Shown one piece after another: positions 170 through 35,018 of a DNA stretch of 35,051 nucleotides. The translations under genes and the position numbers were made by a program. The DNA is taken from NCBI GenBank assembly GCA_003249095.1, contig QBMS01000031.1, forward strand, positions 1 through 35,051, given 5' to 3'. This DNA is from Snowella sp. (GTDB lineage Bacteria; Cyanobacteriota; Cyanobacteriia; Cyanobacteriales; Microcystaceae). A model generated the notes under the pieces. That model was given only the letters and a program-made list of their open reading frames with translations. It did not search any database and was not told the DNA's origin. Position 1 is the stretch's first letter. Each line of letters starts with the position of its first letter.

Positions 170-2800
170 ATGTCCTATTCTCCTGAATCGGTTCGTAATG
201 TCGGTGTTAGTGACCAAGCGACTGGTGTTGATTCCCTTGGATTCAAACCCTATGTCACCGCGATCGCGCATTTTTTGTTAAATAAAGAGACTCAGCCGCC
301 GTTAACCCTTTCTATTGAAGGAAAGTGGGGCAGTGGCAAGTCTTCGTTTATGAAGCAGTTGGAGAAATATCTACGAGAAAACAAGCAACAACGCACGGTT
401 TGGTTTAATGCCTGGCGACATGATAAAGCGGAAGCAGTTTGGACGGCCTTTGCCTTGTCGTTTATTAAACAAATTTCTACTCCTCCAGTTCAGACTAGAC
501 AGGCTTATTATCAAATATTTTTAGAATGTTTAAAGTTAGCAAAATCTCATTTTGATCTCAAAAAAGGTTGGTTAGATTTACTCAAAACAGTCGCGATCGC
601 ACTCTTTATAATTTGGATTGCGTTTTTCGTCATTTGTGCCACCTTAGCAATCCCTTTCATTCTTTTAATTGATGGAATAGAGAGATTTAAGTTATTTTTG
701 CAGGCATTTAAACATCCCGATCAATTATTGCAAGCGTTTTTATATTTATTGGGTATTGCAGGTAGTGGTACTTTATCGTTGACAGGCTTATTGATTTTAT
801 TTAAAAAGTTACCCACTATTATTGGCAATCCTAAAATCAATTTAATTAAACATTTCAATTTTATTAAATATCTCAAATCTCTTGATTACCAGAAACAATC
901 TGCTTTTATTGAAGAATTTCATGAAGATTTTGCTAAGATTGTCAAAGCTTATATTGGCGATGATCGGGTCTTTGTTTTTATTGACGATTTAGATCGTTGT
1001 GAGAATTCTAAATCTGCTGATCTGATGCAGGCAATCAATTTGATGATCGCCGATGATCCACCAGTAGTTTTTATTTTAGGAATGGATCGGCAAAAAATTG
1101 CGGCCAGTTTAGCGGTGAAATATGAAAATATTGTAGCCTATTTACCCTCAGAAACTCTAGAAATTGATCCTGATATTTTAGCTCGTAGTTCTGCGAGTAA
1201 AGGGTTAGCCTATGGTTATACTTTTATCGAAAAATTTGTCCAGTTACCATTTCAAGTTCCCCAACCTTCCCAAGCAGATTTTGAACGCTTTTTTGATAAA
1301 CTTGGGACTTCCTCCTCCTCAAATGCCTCACTCTCAAAATCGTTACCACCTCCACCCAAATTTCGTTCTTTTCATCTGAGCTTATCTGATCCGAAGACCT
1401 CAAGAAAAACTTCACCTACGAATCAAAAAAAGATGCTTATTGTCAAAAATAAAAAAATGATGAGTCAAGCTAAAAAAGAAGAAGTAGATAAAATTGAAAA
1501 GCCCAAAAATCAATTATCAGAAAGAATTAAATTAACTTTTGAAGGTGATTCTTCAACGGTACGAGATATTGTGATGATGGTGGCTCCTGCTTTGGATTAC
1601 AATCCCCGACGCATCAAACAATTTATCAATGTCTTTCGGCTCAAAGTTTGCATTGCCGATATGACGGGTTTATTTTTTGAAGAAAAGAACAACGAACAAG
1701 AGATTATTAATCATCATTTAACCCTCCAACAATTGGGCAAATTTACCGCTATTAGTCTGCGTTGGCCGTTGTTGTTATTGGATTTGGAAATCGATAGCCA
1801 ACTTTTACGCAAATTACAGGATTTTGTCCTATATCCCCATTCAACGGTTTCATCTCCAGAAGAATTAGAAGAACTAGAAAGAGATAAAAATGTTCGCTAT
1901 TGGAACAGTTATCATAAGCTAAAAGAATTAATAACGTATGGTTGTCTAGAGACATCTGAAGAGGATCAGACACTACAAATTAATCCAAATTTTAGTTTGG
2001 CGACCCTGAAGATAGGGCGATTATTGCAAGTTTCACCTCCTATTGTTCAAGCGACCGTTGAACCAATCATTGAAACCCAAACTGCCCCAGTTAAAATTAC
2101 CTCATTAATTACTTCATTACCTACGAATTTTAAGTTAGAAATGGTCGAGATTCCTGGGGGTAAATTTATAATGGGGTCGGATGAATATAACAGCGAAAAA
2201 CCGATTCATAAAGTAACGGTAAATGCTTTTAAGATAGGGAAATATCCCGTGACTCAAGCCCAGTATGAAGCGGTCATGGGAACCAATCCTTCTCATTTTG
2301 CGGGCAATCCTCAACGTCCTGTAGAAAATGTTTCTTGGTTTGATTCCCAAACTTTTTGTGAAAAACTGAGTGAGTTAACAGGTCAAAAATATCGTTTACC
2401 GACGGAAGCGGAATGGGAATATGCTTGTCGTGCAGGAACCCAAACTCGATTTAGTTTTGGCGATGATGATAGTCAACTGGGAGATTATGCTTGGTTTAAG
2501 GATAATTCAGGTAATAGAACCCATCCTGTCGGAGAAAAAAAGGCGAATCCTTGGGGATTGTATGATATGCACGGCAATGTGTGGGAATGGTGTGAAGATA
2601 GTTGGCATGAAAACTATAAAAATGCACCAAATAATGGAAGTAGTTGGAATGAGAACCATTCTCAAACAAGTGCTAAAATTCTACGCGGCGGTTCTTGGTT
2701 CGATGTTCCGTGGAGTTGTCGCTCGGCCTATCGAGACAGGTACTATGCTGTTTACTGGTTTAATCTTATTGGTTTTCGGGTTGCTCTGTTTCTTTTCTAG
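170..2800 (+). CDS. KAP family P-loop NTPase fused to a C-terminal FGE-sulfatase/C-type-lectin-like domain
   Basis: 876 aa from an ATG. The N-terminal KAP NTPase has Walker A GKWGSGKSS (51-59) and Walker B VFVFIDDLDRC (267-277). Between them are hydrophobic segments at about 139-168 and 187-211, the membrane hairpin insert typical of KAP NTPases, so the protein is probably anchored to the inner membrane. A Ser/Pro/Lys-rich linker covers about 378-450. Residues ~653-872 form an FGE-sulfatase-like domain (MVEIPGGKFIMGS, RLPTEAEWEYACRAGT, GNVWEWCEDSW, RGGSW, GFRV). The first of the two copper-site cysteines of true formylglycine-generating enzymes appears absent, so a binding role is more likely than catalysis. 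The last ~25 codons are rich in Phe, Tyr, Trp, Asp and Val where relatives carry mostly Asn, like a retroelement-diversified tail. The likely role is a membrane signalling NTPase with a ligand-sensing tail; this is inferred. Confidence 0.9.
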   Translation: MSYSPESVRNVGVSDQATGVDSLGFKPYVTAIAHFLLNKETQPPLTLSIEGKWGSGKSSFMKQLEKYLRENKQQRTVWFNAWRHDKAEAVWTAFALSFIKQISTPPVQTRQAYYQIFLECLKLAKSHFDLKKGWLDLLKTVAIALFIIWIAFFVICATLAIPFILLIDGIERFKLFLQAFKHPDQLLQAFLYLLGIAGSGTLSLTGLLILFKKLPTIIGNPKINLIKHFNFIKYLKSLDYQKQSAFIEEFHEDFAKIVKAYIGDDRVFVFIDDLDRCENSKSADLMQAINLMIADDPPVVFILGMDRQKIAASLAVKYENIVAYLPSETLEIDPDILARSSASKGLAYGYTFIEKFVQLPFQVPQPSQADFERFFDKLGTSSSSNASLSKSLPPPPKFRSFHLSLSDPKTSRKTSPTNQKKMLIVKNKKMMSQAKKEEVDKIEKPKNQLSERIKLTFEGDSSTVRDIVMMVAPALDYNPRRIKQFINVFRLKVCIADMTGLFFEEKNNEQEIINHHLTLQQLGKFTAISLRWPLLLLDLEIDSQLLRKLQDFVLYPHSTVSSPEELEELERDKNVRYWNSYHKLKELITYGCLETSEEDQTLQINPNFSLATLKIGRLLQVSPPIVQATVEPIIETQTAPVKITSLITSLPTNFKLEMVEIPGGKFIMGSDEYNSEKPIHKVTVNAFKIGKYPVTQAQYEAVMGTNPSHFAGNPQRPVENVSWFDSQTFCEKLSELTGQKYRLPTEAEWEYACRAGTQTRFSFGDDDSQLGDYAWFKDNSGNRTHPVGEKKANPWGLYDMHGNVWEWCEDSWHENYKNAPNNGSSWNENHSQTSAKILRGGSWFDVPWSCRSAYRDRYYAVYWFNLIGFRVALFLF
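2699..2770 (+). other. Candidate diversity-generating-retroelement variable region
   Basis: This is the 3' part of the FGE-like domain, between the conserved RGGSW and GFRV blocks. Codons at the positions that vary in the family (TTC, GAT, GTT, AGT, TAT, GAC, TAC, TAT, GCT, GTT, TAC, TTT, AAT, CTT) all end in T or C, and two more are TGG. That is what adenine-directed mutagenesis of AAY and AGG template codons would give, while the intervening Pro, Cys, Arg, Ser and Ala codons are retained. Cyanobacterial retroelement targets often end in this fold. No template repeat or reverse transcriptase (YxDD motif) was found in the window, so the call rests on codon pattern and position alone. Confidence 0.55.
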
Positions 2801-8168: not shown

Positions 8169-10511
8169 ATGACTGAACCATTAGCCGAAAAAATCGGGGT
8201 CTTGAACCAGGCTCCTGTTTATGGACAGACCAATAACATCACGATTAATGGTCAACAAACTTCTCTGATTTACAGTGATCCTTTACCCGATCGCCGTTTT
8301 TTTCAGGGTAGGACGGAGCAACAGGCGGAATTACGAGTTTGGATGGCTGATCGCCATGTTTCTTTGATTGGATTGCGGGGGGAAGGCGGGATCGGGAAGT
8401 CAACGTTGATGGCGCAGGTTTTTGCCGATTCTCCCGATTTTAAAGGCAAATTTTGGGCAGATGTGCGATCGCAGACTTCGATGACGGTGTTGGCGGCGAG
8501 GGCCTTACAGGAATTTGGGGTTTTGCCCGAACAGGTAGAAAATATCGAGGAAAAAGACCTCATTCCCCGTTTATTGCGATTGCTTCAGCAGGGGCGTTAT
8601 TTGTTGGCCATTGATAATTTGGAGTCGGTGTTAACGCCAGAGGGAGCCTGGCTGAGTGGTTATGAGCAGTTTTGGCAGGGTTTTCAGGATATTGGCAGTG
8701 AAAGTGTGCTGTTGTTGGCCAGTCGGGAATATCCGCCCCGTTATTTTGGTTTTGGGCGATCGCATTGGCCACTGCTCGATCAAGGTTTAACGACGGTGGA
8801 AGGTGCGGCGTTATTGGCGGCGTTGGAAGTGGAGGATAGCCAGCAAAATCGGGAACGGGCATCGGAGCAGGTACAGGGCAATCCCTTGGCGTTGTCGTTG
8901 ATAGCGGGTTGGTTGCGGGTGTCTTTTCGGTCAGGTGAGCGTTTTTTACGGTCTTTGGACAGTTGGCCGCAGTTGGTGGGTTCCCATCGCGGCGAAAAGT
9001 TAACGGTTGAGCAGGTTTTGCAGTGGAGTTTAGACCGTCTAACGGAGACGCAACGGTTGTTATTGGCGCAATTGTCGGTTTTGCGCGGGGCGTTTGGGCT
9101 GGAGCTTGCCCAGGCGTTGTTTCCTGATGCGCTGGTGACGATGGAAATTTTGGAGGATTTAGAGCGGCGGTCTATTCTGCAATATTTGAGTCCAGGGGAG
9201 TTTCGGTTTCAGCCCCGTTTGCGGGAATTTGTGAAAGAAAGATCGGCGGATTTAACGACAGCCCATGAACGAGCGATTGTTTATTTTTGGGAGCATCGTC
9301 AAGAAGAATTTGCTAAAGATGATCCTTTATCGGTGGTTGCGGAGTATGAGGAAACTTTTTATCACCAGTGCCAATTAGGGCGTTATCGAGACGCTTATCG
9401 TACTGTATTCGTCTGTGATAATTTTTTAAGATTAAGAGGTCATTACACAATCTTAGTTGATCTTTATAGTCAACTTCATCGAGATTGGCAGCCAACGACC
9501 GAAGAACGACAAGGATATGGAGATGTTTGTAACAATCTGGGGAATGTGTATCGGTCGTTAGGACAATACCAAGAGGCTCTCAATTTTCATCAGCAATCCT
9601 TAGAGATTAAACGTGAGATCGGTAATCGCAAGGGAGAAGCAGCTTCTTTAGGTAATCTAGGGAATGTGTATCGGTTGTTAGGACAGTACCAAGAGGCTCT
9701 CAATTTTTATCAACAATCTTTAGAGATTTTTTGTGAGATCGGTGATCGCAATGGAGGTGATCGCAATGGAGAAGCAGCTTCTTTAGGTAATCTGGGGAGT
9801 CTGTATGAATCGTTAGGACAGTACCAAGAAGCTCTTGATTTTCATCAGCAATCCTTAAAGATTTTTTGTGAGATCGGCGATCGCAATGGAGAAGCAAGTT
9901 CTTTACTCTGTCTGGGAAATGTGCATAATTCACTAGGACAGTACCAAGAAGCTCTCAACTTTTATCAGCAATCCTTAGAAATTGAACGTGAGATTGGTGA
10001 TCGCAATGGAGAAGCACGTTCTTTAATCGGTCTAGGAAATGTGCATAATTCACTAGGACAGCACCAAGAAGCTCTCAATTTTTATCAGCAATCCTTAGAA
10101 ATTGAACGTGAGATTGGTGATAGCAATGGAGAAGCAAATTCTTTAAACAATCTGGGGCTTGTGTATGGGTTGTTAGGAAAGTATCAAGAGGCTCTCGATT
10201 TTTTTCAGCAATCCTTAGAGATTTTTCGTGAGATTGGTACTACGAATGAAGAAGGGGCTTCATTATTCAATCTAGGTCTTGCTTTACTGCATCTTAATCA
10301 AAATGACAATGCCTTAAAACACTTTCAGCAAGCTCTTACTATTTATGAAAACCTTAAGCTTGATGATGAAATTGAAGAATGCAAGCAAGCGATCAGTGAA
10401 CTAAATCAGAGAAAAGAAAAATCTTTAGCTCGAAAACGTTTACAAAAATATGGACTCTGGTTCGTCACTGGCCTAGCCTTAACTATCCTTATCTGGTATC
10501 TCAAAAAATAA
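8169..10511 (+). CDS. NB-ARC/STAND ATPase with TPR repeats and C-terminal membrane anchor (NLR-like)
   Basis: 780 aa. Order: motif AEKIGVLNQAPVYGQTNN (6-23); NB-ARC domain with Walker A GEGGIGKST (71-79), Walker B-like LLAIDNLE (about 145-152), sensor-like LLLASREYP, and QGNPLALSLIAGW (GxP motif); a winged-helix region to about 365; a linker; then at about 455-739 six near-identical 40-residue TPR units (LGQYQEALNFYQQSLEI) and a seventh divergent one; and a hydrophobic helix close to the C-terminus (about 762-777). Such proteins oligomerise on sensing a ligand. The N-terminal motif would then template the matching tail of the upstream protein. The whole 23-base gap before the ATG is pyrimidine, with no Shine-Dalgarno sequence. 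Confidence 0.88.
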   Translation: MTEPLAEKIGVLNQAPVYGQTNNITINGQQTSLIYSDPLPDRRFFQGRTEQQAELRVWMADRHVSLIGLRGEGGIGKSTLMAQVFADSPDFKGKFWADVRSQTSMTVLAARALQEFGVLPEQVENIEEKDLIPRLLRLLQQGRYLLAIDNLESVLTPEGAWLSGYEQFWQGFQDIGSESVLLLASREYPPRYFGFGRSHWPLLDQGLTTVEGAALLAALEVEDSQQNRERASEQVQGNPLALSLIAGWLRVSFRSGERFLRSLDSWPQLVGSHRGEKLTVEQVLQWSLDRLTETQRLLLAQLSVLRGAFGLELAQALFPDALVTMEILEDLERRSILQYLSPGEFRFQPRLREFVKERSADLTTAHERAIVYFWEHRQEEFAKDDPLSVVAEYEETFYHQCQLGRYRDAYRTVFVCDNFLRLRGHYTILVDLYSQLHRDWQPTTEERQGYGDVCNNLGNVYRSLGQYQEALNFHQQSLEIKREIGNRKGEAASLGNLGNVYRLLGQYQEALNFYQQSLEIFCEIGDRNGGDRNGEAASLGNLGSLYESLGQYQEALDFHQQSLKIFCEIGDRNGEASSLLCLGNVHNSLGQYQEALNFYQQSLEIEREIGDRNGEARSLIGLGNVHNSLGQHQEALNFYQQSLEIEREIGDSNGEANSLNNLGLVYGLLGKYQEALDFFQQSLEIFREIGTTNEEGASLFNLGLALLHLNQNDNALKHFQQALTIYENLKLDDEIEECKQAISELNQRKEKSLARKRLQKYGLWFVTGLALTILIWYLKK
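9531..10385 (+). repeat. Tandem 120-bp repeats encoding TPR units
   Basis: Units start at 9531, 9651, 9786, 9906, 10026 and 10146, with a diverged seventh at 10266-10385. Units 4 and 5 are almost identical at DNA level, pointing to recent duplication or gene conversion. Unit 2 is 15 bases longer because GGTGATCGCAATGGA is duplicated in tandem (9741-9755 and 9756-9770), adding GDRNG in frame. Confidence 0.9.
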
Positions 10512-13622: not shown

Positions 13623-14432
13623 ATGTCAAAATCAAAAGTTTTTCTCAGTCATACACATAGTGAACAAGAACTTGCAACCAAAATCAAGGATGAACTATTA
13701 GATCCACATCTTCTTGGTGCTCTCGATATTTTTGTCTCTTCAGACAGTACGACAAACTTACCTGGCACGTCTTGGTTACATAACATTGAAGACTCATTAA
13801 CTACGGCAAATGTTATCCTCATTCTTGCAAGTCCATTTTCAATACAAAAACCTTGGATTAATATTGAGGCTGGAGCAGGTTGGATTCGCTATTTACAAGC
13901 AAGAGATCATGGCGGAACCCCAGTTTATGTAATGCCTCTATGTCATAGCGGACTTTATCCAGGTAAGCTTCCACTTCCGTGGTCAACCTTTAATTCTGTT
14001 GAGCTTCGTACTCAAGGCGGACTACATAATATTCTTGACACCTGTGCCAGAGCGGCAGATTTGCGTAGAAGTCCAAAGCCCGATCTTTCTGATCTTTTGG
14101 AAAATATTATTAATCTTGAGGCTTTTTACTCAAAATACAGAGAAATAGCCCAGAAAATTAACAATGTGGTTAAAATACTGAGTATTTTACCAAGTGATTT
14201 CTTGCAACCTCTTCCCGCAAACCATGTGAGGTCTTTAAAAAGAGTTCGACAAGCTGTTCTAAATCAAGCAGAGGCTGATCTCTTATGGCTACAAGAAAAA
14301 GGGTATATTGACTACAGTCAAGAAAGTGTCATGGTAGACGCAGGAGCAGGTACATTTATTGATGTAATTTTTCGCCCAAAGGAAGATTTTCTACAAAATG
14401 TTGCACCTAATATTCAACATTACATCGAATAA
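13623..14432 (+). CDS. TIR-domain protein, predicted NAD-consuming
   Basis: 269 aa from an ATG. The N-terminal TIR-like domain opens with KVFLSHTHSEQELATKIKDEL; beta strands ALDIFVSSD and NVILILASP follow. PWINIEAGAGW contains W-x-x-x-E (W78, E82), the motif that supplies the catalytic Glu of TIR NADases. The C-terminal ~120 residues are helical with a small beta end and are not recognised; they may sense or regulate. Bacterial TIR proteins often deplete NAD or make a cyclic nucleotide signal when phage is detected. A coiled-coil/zinc gene follows on the same strand, 96 bases on. The defence role is inferred. Confidence 0.75.
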   Translation: MSKSKVFLSHTHSEQELATKIKDELLDPHLLGALDIFVSSDSTTNLPGTSWLHNIEDSLTTANVILILASPFSIQKPWINIEAGAGWIRYLQARDHGGTPVYVMPLCHSGLYPGKLPLPWSTFNSVELRTQGGLHNILDTCARAADLRRSPKPDLSDLLENIINLEAFYSKYREIAQKINNVVKILSILPSDFLQPLPANHVRSLKRVRQAVLNQAEADLLWLQEKGYIDYSQESVMVDAGAGTFIDVIFRPKEDFLQNVAPNIQHYIE

Positions 14433-27973: not shown

Positions 27974-28927
27974 ATGAAACAAACGTCTCTTTTAATAGAA
28001 TATAAACCAAGTCCTTGTAATCCAGTTTTTGCTCGTCATGAAACTTTTCACCCACGTTTTGGGTGGCTAAAAAAAGGGTTTGATTTGGCTCAAAAAAATC
28101 CTAGCATTTTTCTTCAGGATGATGCGCTAATTCAGTTAGGTGTCGGAAAAAATATGGTGAATTCTATTCGCTATTGGTGTCATGCTTTTAAAATTTTAGA
28201 AGAAGATACAGATATTTCTGGGAAAGGACGTTCAAGTTTTCCGACAGAGTTTGGAAGTAAATTATTATCTGAAAACGGATGGGATTCATTTTTAGAAGAT
28301 CCTGCTTCCTTATGGTTATTACATTGGAACCTCCTTAAACCAACCTGTGAAGCGGCCTCTTGGTATTATATTTTTAATCTTTTCCGAGAGAATGATTTTA
28401 CAAATGATGATTTAATAGAAGCTTTAACAGATTATGCAAAAGGATTGAAAAATTCCATCGCTGATAATTCTTTAAAAAAAGATATTACCTGTCTTTTAAG
28501 AATGTATGTAAATAATCGTAATAAAAAAGGCTTTGTTGAAGATTCTATTGATTGTCCTTTTAATGAATTAGGCTTGATTCATTTAACAGAAGATTCAAGA
28601 TATTTTGCCTTTCGATTTGGCCCAAAATTCAATTTGCCTCCTGAGATTTTAGTGGCAACTTGTTTAGAATATGCTAGTCTTGAAAATGACGGAGCAAAAA
28701 CTATTGCTATTTCCCGTTTACTTTATAATTTAGGCAGTCCAGGAATGGTATTTAAGTTAACTGAAAGTGCTATTTGTGATGCGATTGAGAAGGTAGCCAA
28801 GTATGATCGTTCAATCTCTCTTTCAGATTCATCGGGTTTGATTCAGCTTTCTTTTAATGAAGATCCAGCAAAACTCAGTGTTAACATTTTAGAACGGTAT
28901 TACCAAGGAGATAGACGGTGGAGATAA
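27974..28927 (+). CDS. sspB: DUF4007 family protein, SspB-like
   Basis: 317 aa. RHETFHPRFGWLKKGFDLA and IQLGVGKNMVNSIRYWCHAF are the conserved start of DUF4007, the family found in single-strand phosphorothioation (Ssp) systems, where it is reported to nick DNA. The middle is helical; no well-known nuclease motif is obvious. Its stop overlaps the sspC start by 10 bases. In the Ssp pathway it works with SspC and SspD to insert sulfur into the DNA backbone. Assignment rests on family resemblance and the B-C-D order. Confidence 0.82.
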   Translation: MKQTSLLIEYKPSPCNPVFARHETFHPRFGWLKKGFDLAQKNPSIFLQDDALIQLGVGKNMVNSIRYWCHAFKILEEDTDISGKGRSSFPTEFGSKLLSENGWDSFLEDPASLWLLHWNLLKPTCEAASWYYIFNLFRENDFTNDDLIEALTDYAKGLKNSIADNSLKKDITCLLRMYVNNRNKKGFVEDSIDCPFNELGLIHLTEDSRYFAFRFGPKFNLPPEILVATCLEYASLENDGAKTIAISRLLYNLGSPGMVFKLTESAICDAIEKVAKYDRSISLSDSSGLIQLSFNEDPAKLSVNILERYYQGDRRWR

Positions 28928-31900
28928 ACAAAATGGATAAAACTTTAGCTCAATATTTTACACTTCATCGTCGTTATTCACGATCAATAAATCTGGAAAG
29001 AGACTTAGAAAGGGTTGATTCATTAGCAGGCTACATCCTAACGCAACGCGCTCAAGAGGCACTGTATCGTATTGGCGATAAGCTTGGAAGTTCCCCAAAT
29101 GCTGCATGGACACTAACGAGTGTTTACGGAACGGGAAAATCATCATTTGCCCATTTTTTAGCCGCCTTGTGCGCTCCTGTTGGGCATCCTATGCGAGAAA
29201 AGGCATTAGCGATTCTTTTAGAGAGTTCTGTGTCTAAGGATGTTCAATTGTTGCCATTTCAAGAAAACTTCCCTGCTCGTGGCTATGTTAGGGCGATCGC
29301 AACGGGAACGAGAGAACCGATCAGTCATACCATTATTCGTGCTTTAAATCGCGGTGTCGAAGCTTTTTGGAATGTCAAAGAACGAAACAAAATAAATATC
29401 ACTGCTCGACTAGTTGATTTGGAAAATGAAATTATTTCTGGTAATAGAATTGAGAGTAGAAAAATTGCTCGATTAGTGTTGGAAGTAGCGAAAGAGTCAA
29501 AAACAGGTGTTTTTTTAATACTAGATGAACTCGGAAAAAATCTAGAGTTTACTATTTATAATTCCAGTGAAGAAGATTTATATTTATTGCAAGAGCTTTC
29601 TGAATTATCAAATGATCATAAAACTCCTGTTTATATTTTAGGAGTTCTTCATCAAGCTTTCGCAGACTATGGACAGAGATTAGGAAATTTACAAAGAAAC
29701 GAATGGTCAAAAATTCAGGGTCGTTTTGAGGATATCCCTTTTACGGAATCTTCTGGTGAAATGATGCGTTTGATTGGACAAGCTATTGATTCGTCACAAG
29801 CGGAAGCTATCGAAATGGCTACTCATCAACACTCTCAAGAATGGTTTGATAATTTAGCTCATCTGTTTAAAAACGAAGAGTTATCTTTTGAAATTTTTAA
29901 AAAAGTTTATCCGCTTCATCCTTTAACTGCTTTAATTTTACCAATTTTGTGCAATCGCTATGCTCAAAATGATCGGTCTTTATTTACTTTTTTAACAAGT
30001 AGTGAACCATTCTCCTTTAAAAATTTTTTGGACGAGACAACAATTGAAGAAGGACATCTTTTCACCTTAAAGCTAGATCGAGTCTATGATTATTTTATTG
30101 AAACCGCAGGAATGGGTTTGGCTTCACGTCCCAATCTTCAGCGTTGGGTAGAAATTCAAGATTTAATTGCTGATGCTAAACATTTAGAAGTCGAAAGTTT
30201 AAGAGTTTTAAAAATTATTGGAGTTCTGAATCTTGTAACTACAACAGGGAATACGAAAGCAACGCGAGAATTAGTTAAATTAGCGATGTCTGATATTCCT
30301 GCTGATTCTGAAAAATGGGCTATTGTTGTTGATGACTTACTCAAAAAGGGTTTGGTTACTCATTTCCGTCAATTAGACGAATTGCGTCTATGGCAAGGAT
30401 CAGATTTTAATGTAGATCTAGCTCTAAACACTGAATTAGAACGACAACGAGATTCTTTAGTTTTTCTTTTGTCCAATATTCATTCTTTAGTTCCCTTAGT
30501 CGCGCAACGCCATAGTTATCAAACAGGAACATTACGTTATTTTGAAAGAATCTATTTAGATAGTTCAATTTCTCTGAAAGAATTAAAGTGTGTTTCCCCT
30601 AATGTGGATGGACTTATTGGTTATTGGTTAGATGACCAGGCTCTTGTCGATGTTCCTGAAACAACAATTGATGGTAAACCGTTAATTATAATATCTATTA
30701 CTAATCTGAGTATTCTTCATTCCCAAGTACGAGAATTTTCTGCACTTAAGAAAATTAAGCAAAATGCGCCTGAATTACAGACAGATAGTGTTGCTAAAAA
30801 AGAAATAAATTATCGCTTAAATAAAGGAAGAGAGTTATTAGATGAGACGCTCAATCAGTCTTTTAATTTGTCAAGTGGAAAGAATATTTGTTGGATTTTA
30901 GGAAAGAAAGTTACACTCAATCACATTAGGGATTTTAATCTAAAATTATCTGAGGTTTGTGATCGGATTTATCATAAAACCCCACGTCTTTGGAATGAAT
31001 TGATTAATCGACGTGAATTGACTTCTCAAGGAACTAAAGCTCGACGAGAGTTAATTCAAGCAATGGTTGAACACCCAAACGAAGAACGTCTAGCATTAGA
31101 AGGCTATGGGCCAGAAGTGAGTATGTATTTCTCTTTGCTAAAAGAAACAAAAATTCATAGACAAGAAGATGGCTATTGGGATATTTATCCTCCTTCTAAA
31201 GAATCTCCTGTTTGGACGTTATGGGAGGCAATTGAAACATTTTGCTTAGATGCTAAAGAAAAGCCAGAAACTCTAGATAAACTTTATCAATTATTAAATG
31301 CTCCTCCTTACGGAATGAAGGAAGGGGCTATTCCTGTAATATTAGCAGCCATTCTTTTGCATTATATGGATGATATCGGTATTTATAAGGATGGAACTTT
31401 TATTCCCGTACTAGGAGTTGAACATTTTGAATTATTAGTAAAAGATCCTTCTCGATTTGCAGTCAAAAATTTTGAAGTAATTGGTTTACGTTCCCAAGTA
31501 TTTAAGGAGCTTGAGGCAATTTTACGACATCCTAATTGGAAAAAGCCTGGGCAACTTCGTAATGCGACTTTGCTAACTGTTGTGTCTCCTCTTTATCAGT
31601 TCGTGAAAAAATTACCTGCTTATACTAAGCAAACTCAACGAATCGGAATAGATGCTCAGGCTGTCTTAAAGTCTTTACAAGAAACAGTTGAACCAGATGA
31701 ATTGTTATTTATTAAATTGCCAATTGCTTGTAATTTACCATTAATTAAAGTTGATGAAGAACAAAATGAGGAAGTTGCCAAGAATTTAAAGCTTAAATTA
31801 ATACAGGTTCTTCGCGAAATTAATACTGCCTATGGAAGTCTATTACATGATTGTCAAGGGCTTTTGTATGATGCTTTTGGGGTACGCAGTGACGAACAGA

Positions 31901-32427
31901 AGCTAAGGGAAGATCTACGAGTTAGGGCAAAGTATTTAGTCGATAAATGCGTGGAGCGTAGTCTGAGAAGTTTTACCCAAGCGGCGATCGCGGAAAATAA
32001 AACGGATGAGGAGTGGTTAGAAGCTTTAGTAATGATTATTGCAGATAAGCCTGCTTTATCATGGAAAGATGAAGATTTTCTTGTATTTGAAGTTAAATTG
32101 TCAGAATTAGCCCGAAAATTCAAAAATTTAGAGGCTCTGCAAAAAGATACTGCTATCCAAGGAGATGGATTTGATGCTCGGCGGATCACGGTCACTCGTC
32201 CTGATGGTCAGGAGACTCATCGTTTGGTCTGGGTCGATCACGAGCAAGAAGATCATGTAGATCAGCTAGTGGAACAGATTTTGGAAAAATTACCTGATAA
32301 TCTTCAGCTTCGACAAATGGTTTTGGCTAAACTGACAGAAAAGCTATTAGGTACTTCTTTGCAGAAAGAAGCCACTCCTTTTCAAAGAAAACGACAATCA
32401 AAAAAAAGAATAAGTAATAACAACTAA
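28918..32427 (+). CDS. sspC: Large P-loop ATPase, SspC-like
   Basis: 1169 aa from the GTG at 28918, which has AAGGAG 7 bases upstream; an ATG at 28933, also with GGAG, is the alternative and gives 1164 aa. Walker A SVYGTGKSS is at about 69-76 and Walker B GVFLILDELGK at about 196-206. The remaining ~900 residues are mostly helical, without other motifs I recognise. The size and position, overlapping sspB and followed by sspD, fit SspC, the ATPase of the phosphorothioation complex. Energy from ATP would drive DNA handling during sulfur insertion. Two GCGATCGC sites lie in it. Confidence 0.8.
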   Translation: MEINKMDKTLAQYFTLHRRYSRSINLERDLERVDSLAGYILTQRAQEALYRIGDKLGSSPNAAWTLTSVYGTGKSSFAHFLAALCAPVGHPMREKALAILLESSVSKDVQLLPFQENFPARGYVRAIATGTREPISHTIIRALNRGVEAFWNVKERNKINITARLVDLENEIISGNRIESRKIARLVLEVAKESKTGVFLILDELGKNLEFTIYNSSEEDLYLLQELSELSNDHKTPVYILGVLHQAFADYGQRLGNLQRNEWSKIQGRFEDIPFTESSGEMMRLIGQAIDSSQAEAIEMATHQHSQEWFDNLAHLFKNEELSFEIFKKVYPLHPLTALILPILCNRYAQNDRSLFTFLTSSEPFSFKNFLDETTIEEGHLFTLKLDRVYDYFIETAGMGLASRPNLQRWVEIQDLIADAKHLEVESLRVLKIIGVLNLVTTTGNTKATRELVKLAMSDIPADSEKWAIVVDDLLKKGLVTHFRQLDELRLWQGSDFNVDLALNTELERQRDSLVFLLSNIHSLVPLVAQRHSYQTGTLRYFERIYLDSSISLKELKCVSPNVDGLIGYWLDDQALVDVPETTIDGKPLIIISITNLSILHSQVREFSALKKIKQNAPELQTDSVAKKEINYRLNKGRELLDETLNQSFNLSSGKNICWILGKKVTLNHIRDFNLKLSEVCDRIYHKTPRLWNELINRRELTSQGTKARRELIQAMVEHPNEERLALEGYGPEVSMYFSLLKETKIHRQEDGYWDIYPPSKESPVWTLWEAIETFCLDAKEKPETLDKLYQLLNAPPYGMKEGAIPVILAAILLHYMDDIGIYKDGTFIPVLGVEHFELLVKDPSRFAVKNFEVIGLRSQVFKELEAILRHPNWKKPGQLRNATLLTVVSPLYQFVKKLPAYTKQTQRIGIDAQAVLKSLQETVEPDELLFIKLPIACNLPLIKVDEEQNEEVAKNLKLKLIQVLREINTAYGSLLHDCQGLLYDAFGVRSDEQKLREDLRVRAKYLVDKCVERSLRSFTQAAIAENKTDEEWLEALVMIIADKPALSWKDEDFLVFEVKLSELARKFKNLEALQKDTAIQGDGFDARRITVTRPDGQETHRLVWVDHEQEDHVDQLVEQILEKLPDNLQLRQMVLAKLTEKLLGTSLQKEATPFQRKRQSKKRISNNN

Positions 32428-32547
32428 GTGTTTTTTTGAATAAAATGCTCTATCTTCTTTGATTTAACTTTACTTTCAGAAGTATTTGTGATACGGTAAA
32501 AACTGATAAGCTCAAATCAGCTAAGCATCAAATTTATTAGATTAACA

Positions 32548-33348
32548 ATGGGACATCAAAACGTCAGACATATTTTAGGCTTGTCTGGGGGGAAAGATAG
32601 TACGGCTCTGGCTATTTTGCTACATCAAGAGATTCCAGAGATGGAATATTTTTTCTGTGATACTCATAAGGAATTACCTGAAACTTATGAATATCTTGAT
32701 CGTATAAAGGCTCGGCTCGGCATTAAAATTTCCTACTTAAGTGAAAAGAGAGGCTTTGATCATTGGTTAGCCATGCACGATGGGCTATTGCCTTCCCCAC
32801 AAATGCGCTGGTGTACGGTGAAGATGAAAATTAAACCGTTAGAAGAGTTTGTTGGAGAGGATGAAACGATTAGCTACGTTGGTATCCGCGCAGATGAAAA
32901 TCGAGATGGTTATATTTCCACGAAACCTAACATAAAGCCTGTTTTTCCATTTAAAGAACGTGGATTGGTTAAGGAGGATATTATCCGTATTCTTGAAGAT
33001 AGTGGAATTGGTCTTCCTGATTATTATCGTTGGCGAAGTCGTTCTGGCTGTTTTTTCTGTTTTTTCCAGCGTAAATATGAGTGGGTAATGTTGGCACAGG
33101 AACATCCTGCTTTGTTTGCTAAGGCAGTAGATTATGAATCTAACCACAAAGATGGTCGTACTTATACATGGACAGATGGGGAAACATTGCTAGAGCTTTT
33201 GACCAGAAAGCAAGATATTATTTCCAAGCATGAAAAGGCAATTCAACGAGAGCAAAAAGCAGCTCCAAATAGACCTTTAGCAGAATCTTTAGAGGCTGTA
33301 TTAGAGGAAGAAGATATGGGATTACCTTGTTTAGCTTGTCATCTTTAA
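32548..33348 (+). CDS. sspD: PAPS-reductase-family ATP pyrophosphatase, SspD-like
   Basis: 266 aa. The PP-loop SGGKDS is at 13-18; YFFCDTHKELPETY and MRWCTVKMKIKP follow the family. Cysteines in MRWCT, SGCFFCF and the C-terminal CLAC could bind a 4Fe-4S cluster. Ssp and Dnd systems use such an enzyme to activate and transfer sulfur to DNA. No cysteine desulfurase (SspA) is in the window, so sulfur may come from a housekeeping desulfurase or one to the right. Confidence 0.85.
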   Translation: MGHQNVRHILGLSGGKDSTALAILLHQEIPEMEYFFCDTHKELPETYEYLDRIKARLGIKISYLSEKRGFDHWLAMHDGLLPSPQMRWCTVKMKIKPLEEFVGEDETISYVGIRADENRDGYISTKPNIKPVFPFKERGLVKEDIIRILEDSGIGLPDYYRWRSRSGCFFCFFQRKYEWVMLAQEHPALFAKAVDYESNHKDGRTYTWTDGETLLELLTRKQDIISKHEKAIQREQKAAPNRPLAESLEAVLEEEDMGLPCLACHL

Positions 33349-34085: not shown

Positions 34086-35018
34086 ATGAATGATTTTCGT
34101 TTTAGAACTGAAGATATTGCATCTGATGAACTTCAATCTCTTTTTGTAGAAACGCAATTAGATAGAAAAATTATAGATTCATTAAAATTGCGTAATCCAA
34201 TTATCCTTGAAGGTAGCCGAGGGACAGGAAAGTCTTTTCTATTAAGGATGGCAGAAAAAGAACTCAATGATGAATTTTCAACAAATAGAGTACTACCTGT
34301 TTACATAACGTTTACAGGAGGTGCATTGATCTCTATCGAAGATGACCCATATAAATTCTCTAAGTGGATGATTGCTAATATTTGTCATTACTTTTTAAGA
34401 GCTTTAAAAAAGAAGGGTCTACACATTGGGCATAGTGAAGTGACCAATTTGCTATCTGGAAATCAAGAAAATTCGGAAATACTAGAAAAAAAGTTTGAGT
34501 CAATTCATAAGGCATATGATAACTTTTATGCAAGCGACTCTGTTATTGATTCATCAGAAGTTCCAACTATAAACAACTTTAAAGATGCAGTTGAAGAGAT
34601 TTGTCAAGAACTACAAATCAAGAGAGTTTGTTTCTTTTTTGATGAAGCAGCTCATATTCTTATACAAGAATTACAAAGACAATTTTTTAGTTTATTTCGA
34701 GATTTAAGATCACCTTATATAAATTGTAAGGCTGCTGTTTATCCAGGCGTAACATTTTACGGCGATTCATTTGAAATGACTCATGATGCTACATTGCTAA
34801 GAATAGAGAGAGAAATAACTAATTCTGAAGATTATTTGTCGAGTATGAAAGAGTTAGTTTTCAAGCAGATAGATGAACCACTTAAAAACAAAATTAATGC
34901 TCGGATGAAAGAATTTAATATACTTGCTTACTCAGCCTCTGGCAATCCTCGTATTCTATTAAATACAATAGAAAAATGTGGTAATTTTAAAAGCAAGGCT
35001 CTCCTGAATAAAAAGTGA
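34086..35018 (+). CDS. AAA-type ATPase in the Ssp island, possibly truncated by a frameshift
   Basis: 310 aa. Walker A GSRGTGKS is at about 43-50 and Walker B RVCFFFDEAAH at about 195-205; YPGVTFYGDSF and SASGNPRILLNT follow. It resembles the STAND/ORC-like ATPases found in defence islands. The frame ends TGA TAA right after an A5 run. The -1 frame after that run stays open to the window end, so the full protein may be longer. It is the last gene here, 21 bases after the HEPN-like gene, and may be part of the effector side of the island. Confidence 0.7.
   Translation: MNDFRFRTEDIASDELQSLFVETQLDRKIIDSLKLRNPIILEGSRGTGKSFLLRMAEKELNDEFSTNRVLPVYITFTGGALISIEDDPYKFSKWMIANICHYFLRALKKKGLHIGHSEVTNLLSGNQENSEILEKKFESIHKAYDNFYASDSVIDSSEVPTINNFKDAVEEICQELQIKRVCFFFDEAAHILIQELQRQFFSLFRDLRSPYINCKAAVYPGVTFYGDSFEMTHDATLLRIEREITNSEDYLSSMKELVFKQIDEPLKNKINARMKEFNILAYSASGNPRILLNTIEKCGNFKSKALLNKK

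Follow-up and report, generated by a model that had tools for sequence, protein, structure and literature searches.

The C-terminal tail of the KAP NTPase encoded at positions 170–2800 (forward strand) is probably an orphan DGR-type variable region (VR), one that was diversified in the past and is now either frozen or changing by ordinary mutation. The window, i.e. the whole stretch of 35,051 nucleotides that was analyzed, corresponds to the entire contig C162 in the draft assembly of a cyanobacterium (G000; 4.6 Mb, 237 contigs, 99.98% complete). A DGR fingerprint appears to have outlived its machinery in as many as four paralogous sensors of this genome, which bears on the counting of DGR targets by codon pattern alone and on the question of why diversified receptors are retained, and for how long, once the writer is gone.

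Domain make-up and anatomy of the tail

The 876-aa product of the gene carries a KAP P-loop NTPase domain (PF07693, E 4.9e-36) and a C-terminal FGE-sulfatase/C-type lectin (CLec) domain (PF03781, E 6.3e-55) as defined by Pfam, and with both on one chain it has the KAP NTPase-FGS architecture. A Walker A motif (GKWGSGKS) is located at aa 51 and a Walker-B-like motif (VFVFIDDLD) at aa 267. Between the two motifs, a Kyte-Doolittle scan shows that the NTPase domain contains inserted segments of hydrophobic, TM-like character (aa 143–161, 159–177, and 193–211; positions 596–802, forward strand), and insertions of this kind are typical of KAP NTPases. The FGE/CLec domain spans positions 2138–2785 (forward strand), and its best relative among solved structures is variable protein 1 of a Treponema denticola DGR (TvpA, 2y3c; phmmer, E 6.7e-37). 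The same structure was ranked first by Foldseek (1.8e-16) for the AlphaFold model, which has a mean pLDDT of 74 with only 51–77 over the last 80 residues; its reliability is lowest in the variable tail, and no residues were placed from it. The FGE-type CLec fold is common to both proteins, whereas the solved chain of TvpA has no NTPase fusion and the FGE domain of the window is fused to an NTPase. That the domain is a true formylglycine-generating enzyme, with incidental tail variation, is very improbable; the Pfam FGE-sulfatase match (6e-55) is in its favor, but the top match in both sequence and structure is a DGR variable protein, and the domain is fused to a signaling NTPase and has several divergent paralogs.

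The variable tail lies where the sequence-only reading had placed it. The conserved framework LRGGSW (2681–2698, forward strand), which ends with the framework Trp of RGGSW at 2696–2698, precedes the variable region at 2699–2770 (forward strand), and the conserved 3' framework GFRV follows with the stop codon at 2771–2800 (forward strand). Translation of 2681–2785 gives LRGGSW-FDV-P-WS-CRSA-Y-R-DRYYAVYWFNLI-GFRV. The framework served to define the variable-type columns: three follow RGGSW, two follow P, one follows CRSA, and the rest are all those between R and GFR, giving 18 variable-type codons between the framework elements P, CRSA, and R. As in DGR variable proteins, the VR is 3'-terminal and is held in a CLec/FGE domain with a conserved framework. 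The segment at 2771–2800 corresponds in position to the end of DGR VRs that carries the IMH, and may have acted as one; GGTTTTCGGGTTGC, found downstream of the VR, also occurs in the template repeat (TR) of the related genome G005. The only notable hairpin is a perfect 10-bp inverted repeat with a 29-nt spacer at 2855–2903, about 55 nt past the stop codon. Its interpretation as a DGR cruciform or a MITE was rejected, since the repeat is present in a single copy and is probably a terminator.

Codon imprint and related templates

A codon was counted as a misfit when it could not be derived from an AAY or AGG template codon by adenine changes, i.e. when it was neither NNY nor NGG. The pattern of adenine-directed mutagenesis that the sequence-only reading had described was borne out: 15 of the 18 variable-type codons end in T or C, which leaves TGG (2711), AGG (2738), and TGG (2756). 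The tail therefore contains 0/18 misfits compared with 42% in the 200 codons upstream (binomial P 4.7e-5, which is nominal because the feature had been picked in that reading on the same sequence). The imprint is present to some degree in four of the seven FGE tails of this genome. The tail of a Ser/Thr kinase-FGE protein (assigned by reading) on contig C133 has 0/18 misfits and is an independent confirmation of the imprint seen on the window tail, and there are 1/18 in the full-length KAP-FGE protein on C1 and 2/18 in a KAP-FGE protein (assigned by similarity) on C111. Imprint-free FGE tails of the same genome have 4/16 (C184), 5/18 (C204), and 7/18 (C153) misfits, and tails in real DGR cassettes have 0–1 when codons fixed in their template are set aside. 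With this simple codon test, tails written by a DGR can be told apart from ordinary FGE tails.

Restricting the test to synonymous choice, at residues for which both kinds of codon exist, resulted in P values of 0.026 for the window VR alone and 6e-6 for the four own VRs pooled. The synonymous-only evidence is weaker because most of the VR residues (F, D, Y, and N) are encoded by NNY whatever their history. Much of the imprint lies in the choice of these residues (F, Y, D, and N), a choice that could arise without a DGR if a lectin-like loop were under strong selection.

Elsewhere in the same taxonomic family and order, adenine-directed DGRs do rewrite tails belonging to this FGE family. A DGR RT profile (A1), built from RTs adjoining FGE loci, identified full DGR RTs in 7 of 50 same-family genomes, the matches in these relatives having E<1e-160. 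TR/VR pairs were found in G067, G058, G029 (two loci), G005, and one Scytonema locus by an adenine-directed repeat scan, which recovered the pairs in several related DGR loci, not all, and the mismatches between TR and VR were almost exclusively at template A. Of 391 genomes of the order, 13 have TRs that match a degenerate TR pattern, with a DGR RT adjoining most of those that were checked, and in G205 a TR is adjoined by a kinase-FGE gene. The TR/VR pairs, the TRs with RTs, and the kinase-FGE gene next to a TR together identify the FGE tails of related genomes as DGR targets. The related templates read RGGSWNNNPRNCRSANRNRNNPDNRNNNIGFRV or near it; codon 10 is AGG, as is codon 19 or 24 in some of them, and AAY and AGG stand in true TRs of the order at the same columns as the variable codons of the window tail. 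The TGG at 2711–2713 (forward strand) occupies a column with AGG in the templates L146, L148, L149, L151, L155, L156, L157, and L160, and the TGG at 2756–2758 (forward strand) a column with AGG in L151 and L160. The earlier suggestion that both Trp codons derive from AGG is thus supported at the level of columns, as both stand where the L151 and L160 templates have AGG (codons 10 and 24). At the three template-AGG columns the window has TGG, AGG, and TGG, and C111, C133, and G004 have AGG, GGG, TGG, or CGT. Taken with these homologous templates, the imprint suggests that the lineage of the tail was rewritten in the past.

A separate locus in G022 (C84, 108739–108930; L109/L140) holds a DGR RT fragment in an 86-aa open frame (E 1.7e-17), adjoining a caspase-FGE gene whose VR imprint is perfect, and looks like a decayed DGR cassette.

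Variation among relatives and the search for a writer

Comparison of the window protein with its C1 paralog resulted in an identity of 1/18 (6%) at the variable columns and 14/14 (100%) in the intervening framework, with 75% identity in the rest of the FGE domain and 68% in the KAP part (Fisher, 7.6e-9), so that relative to the rest of the protein the variation is confined to the VR codons. In the nearest orthologs, from G014, G022, and G064 (L012, L013, and L184), the KAP part is 97–98% identical and the variable columns are 39–71% identical. The tails of these orthologs have NNR codons (TTG, AAA/AGA) in common and altered framework residues, and G064 has a DGR as well as a KAP-FGE ortholog, yet its TR fails to match that tail. 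Because of these NNR codons, framework changes, and the TR mismatch, the fast tail change in the three genomes does not look DGR-like, and in this lineage non-DGR change suffices for fast tail variation. It is worth weighing whether the window tail was never DGR-written and is simply a ligand loop of the ordinary FGE/CLec type, shaped by diversifying selection or by recombination between paralogs, with other members of the family being DGR targets. The hypervariable orthologs, with their NNR codons, intermediate states, and lack of a TR match, are in line with such a history, as are the imprint-free tails of C204 and C184, which have the same framework. We nevertheless regard it as unlikely, given the perfect NNY/NGG imprint in both the window and C133, the TGG/AGG/GGG alternatives at template-AGG columns, and the pooled synonymous test (6e-6).

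The sequence-only reading had proposed to search the genome for a reverse transcriptase and a template repeat, and lack of the repeat was to count against it; neither a DGR RT nor such a repeat was found. Profile A1 gave 0 matches to a DGR-clade RT (motif GLPIGNLTSQ) in the 237-contig assembly. All DGR RTs used here match PF00078, so a DGR RT in this genome should have shown with that family as well; the one RT it detects (L144:111–1277 on contig C235) has the motif GLPISQQNIVS, is an AbiA-like defense RT (PADLOC, 1.4e-30), and was rejected as a DGR RT. No TR matching the VR was found in the genome by DNA similarity search, by two A-tolerant patterns of the window VR, or by a degenerate TR consensus pattern. 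A six-frame search of the genome for TR-like peptides returned only the six known FGE tails, and no TR/VR pairs resulted from self-scans of the own loci on C1, C111, C133, and C235. The proposal of a tunable sensor holds for the DGR-VR anatomy and the codon imprint, but a sensor that is tunable now is not supported, because the template repeat and the DGR RT are both absent from the assembly.

A functional DGR could still act on the VR in trans if its RT and TR were in an assembly gap or on a lost plasmid. The draft consists of 237 contigs, and 169 bp lie between a contig end and the start of the window gene, with about 330 bp between the end of the C1 paralog's tail and a further contig end, placing both full-length KAP-FGE genes at contig edges. 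Trans-acting DGRs have been proposed (PMC10907252), cyanobacteria often have remote targets (PMC7517822), and the imprint on the window VR and on C133 is perfect. The assembly is 99.98% complete, however, with no DGR RT or TR fragment anywhere, and a single recent template common to all four imprinted tails is incompatible with the differences among them, which makes present action in trans quite improbable. These tails differ from each other at 6–9 of 18 third positions and at 4–10 of 42 framework bases, whereas within one DGR the differences between tails and templates amount to 0–1 third positions and 0–2 framework bases, indicating that the four were not recently written from one common template.

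Proposed function and relation to known systems

According to the explanation that we prefer, an orphan VR, the ancestor of the FGE tail would have been rewritten by a DGR RT from an adenine-rich template, for which we infer NNN-P/S-RN-CRSA-N-R-NRNNADNRNNN-IGFRV. The RT and the template would since have been lost from the genome, leaving the gene with a single binding surface that was selected and is now fixed. A ligand may be bound by the variable loop of the CLec fold, and this would probably be either an invader inside the cell or a self-derived signal, because the FGE domain lies C-terminal to the KAP P-loop domain, on the presumed cytosolic side. Ligand binding could shift the nucleotide state or the oligomerization of the membrane-associated KAP NTPase and in this way lead to a downstream response. 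By analogy with published NTPase-FGS systems, the protein may have a counter-invader role, in which a membrane-associated KAP switch bears the CLec sensor, probably facing the cytosol. A broader idea, to which we give little credence, is that cyanobacterial lineages keep DGR-written receptors after loss of the writer as a frozen KAP- and kinase-fused repertoire (here C162, C1, C111, and C133), which could be rediversified in trans if a DGR were to re-enter by horizontal transfer.

The KAP fusion had been put forward as a possible new carrier of a variable tail, and in this respect the proposal was anticipated in print: an association of KAP ATPase-FGS conflict proteins with DGRs has been published (PMC8195603), and KAP NTPases are named among DGR targets, with clade 5D having STAND/KAP NTPases (PMC10907252). 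The targets in the DGR cassettes fetched here are NB-ARC/NACHT/CHAT, GUN4, GT4, kinase, or unannotated fusions, with no KAP-FGE among them, and the link between KAP and DGRs therefore rests on the literature. The window protein resembles the NTPase-FGS conflict systems, including those with a KAP ATPase, in combining a KAP-type NTPase with a C-terminal FGS (PF03781) sensor, but unlike them it has no DGR and no EAD or effector partner identified beside its gene (PMC8195603). It shares an NTPase center and a diversified CLec end with the clade 5D targets, which are sited in DGR loci, whereas the window gene is an orphan (PMC10907252). The closest parallels are the cyanobacterial DGR variable proteins and the remote variable proteins and their homologs (PMC7517822), which likewise have a C-terminal CLec/FGE domain with the framework RGGSW...CRSA.R...GFRV, AAY/AGG-type variable codons, and dispersed paralogs fused to signaling domains, kinase fusions among them. 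They differ in that G000 has no DGR RT or TR and that the carrier is a KAP NTPase; that study stresses kinases, and "KAP" is absent from its text. It also describes a cyanobacterial paralog with remnant VR-TR homology and no RT nearby (PMC7517822).

Upstream of the window gene the sequence ends at the contig edge, and the genes downstream of it are of non-conflict type by reading. Farther along the contig, positions 8169–10511 encode an NB-ARC/TPR STAND-like protein with near-identical tandem TPR units and a C-terminal hydrophobic segment, and positions 13623–14432 encode a TIR-domain protein (PF13676, 3.7e-10). The latter lies upstream of a single-strand phosphorothioation defense cluster at 27974–33348, comprised of SspB, SspC, and SspD homologs (PADLOC E 4e-124, 0, and 2e-113, respectively), and a further ATPase gene is located at 34086–35018, between this cluster and the contig end.
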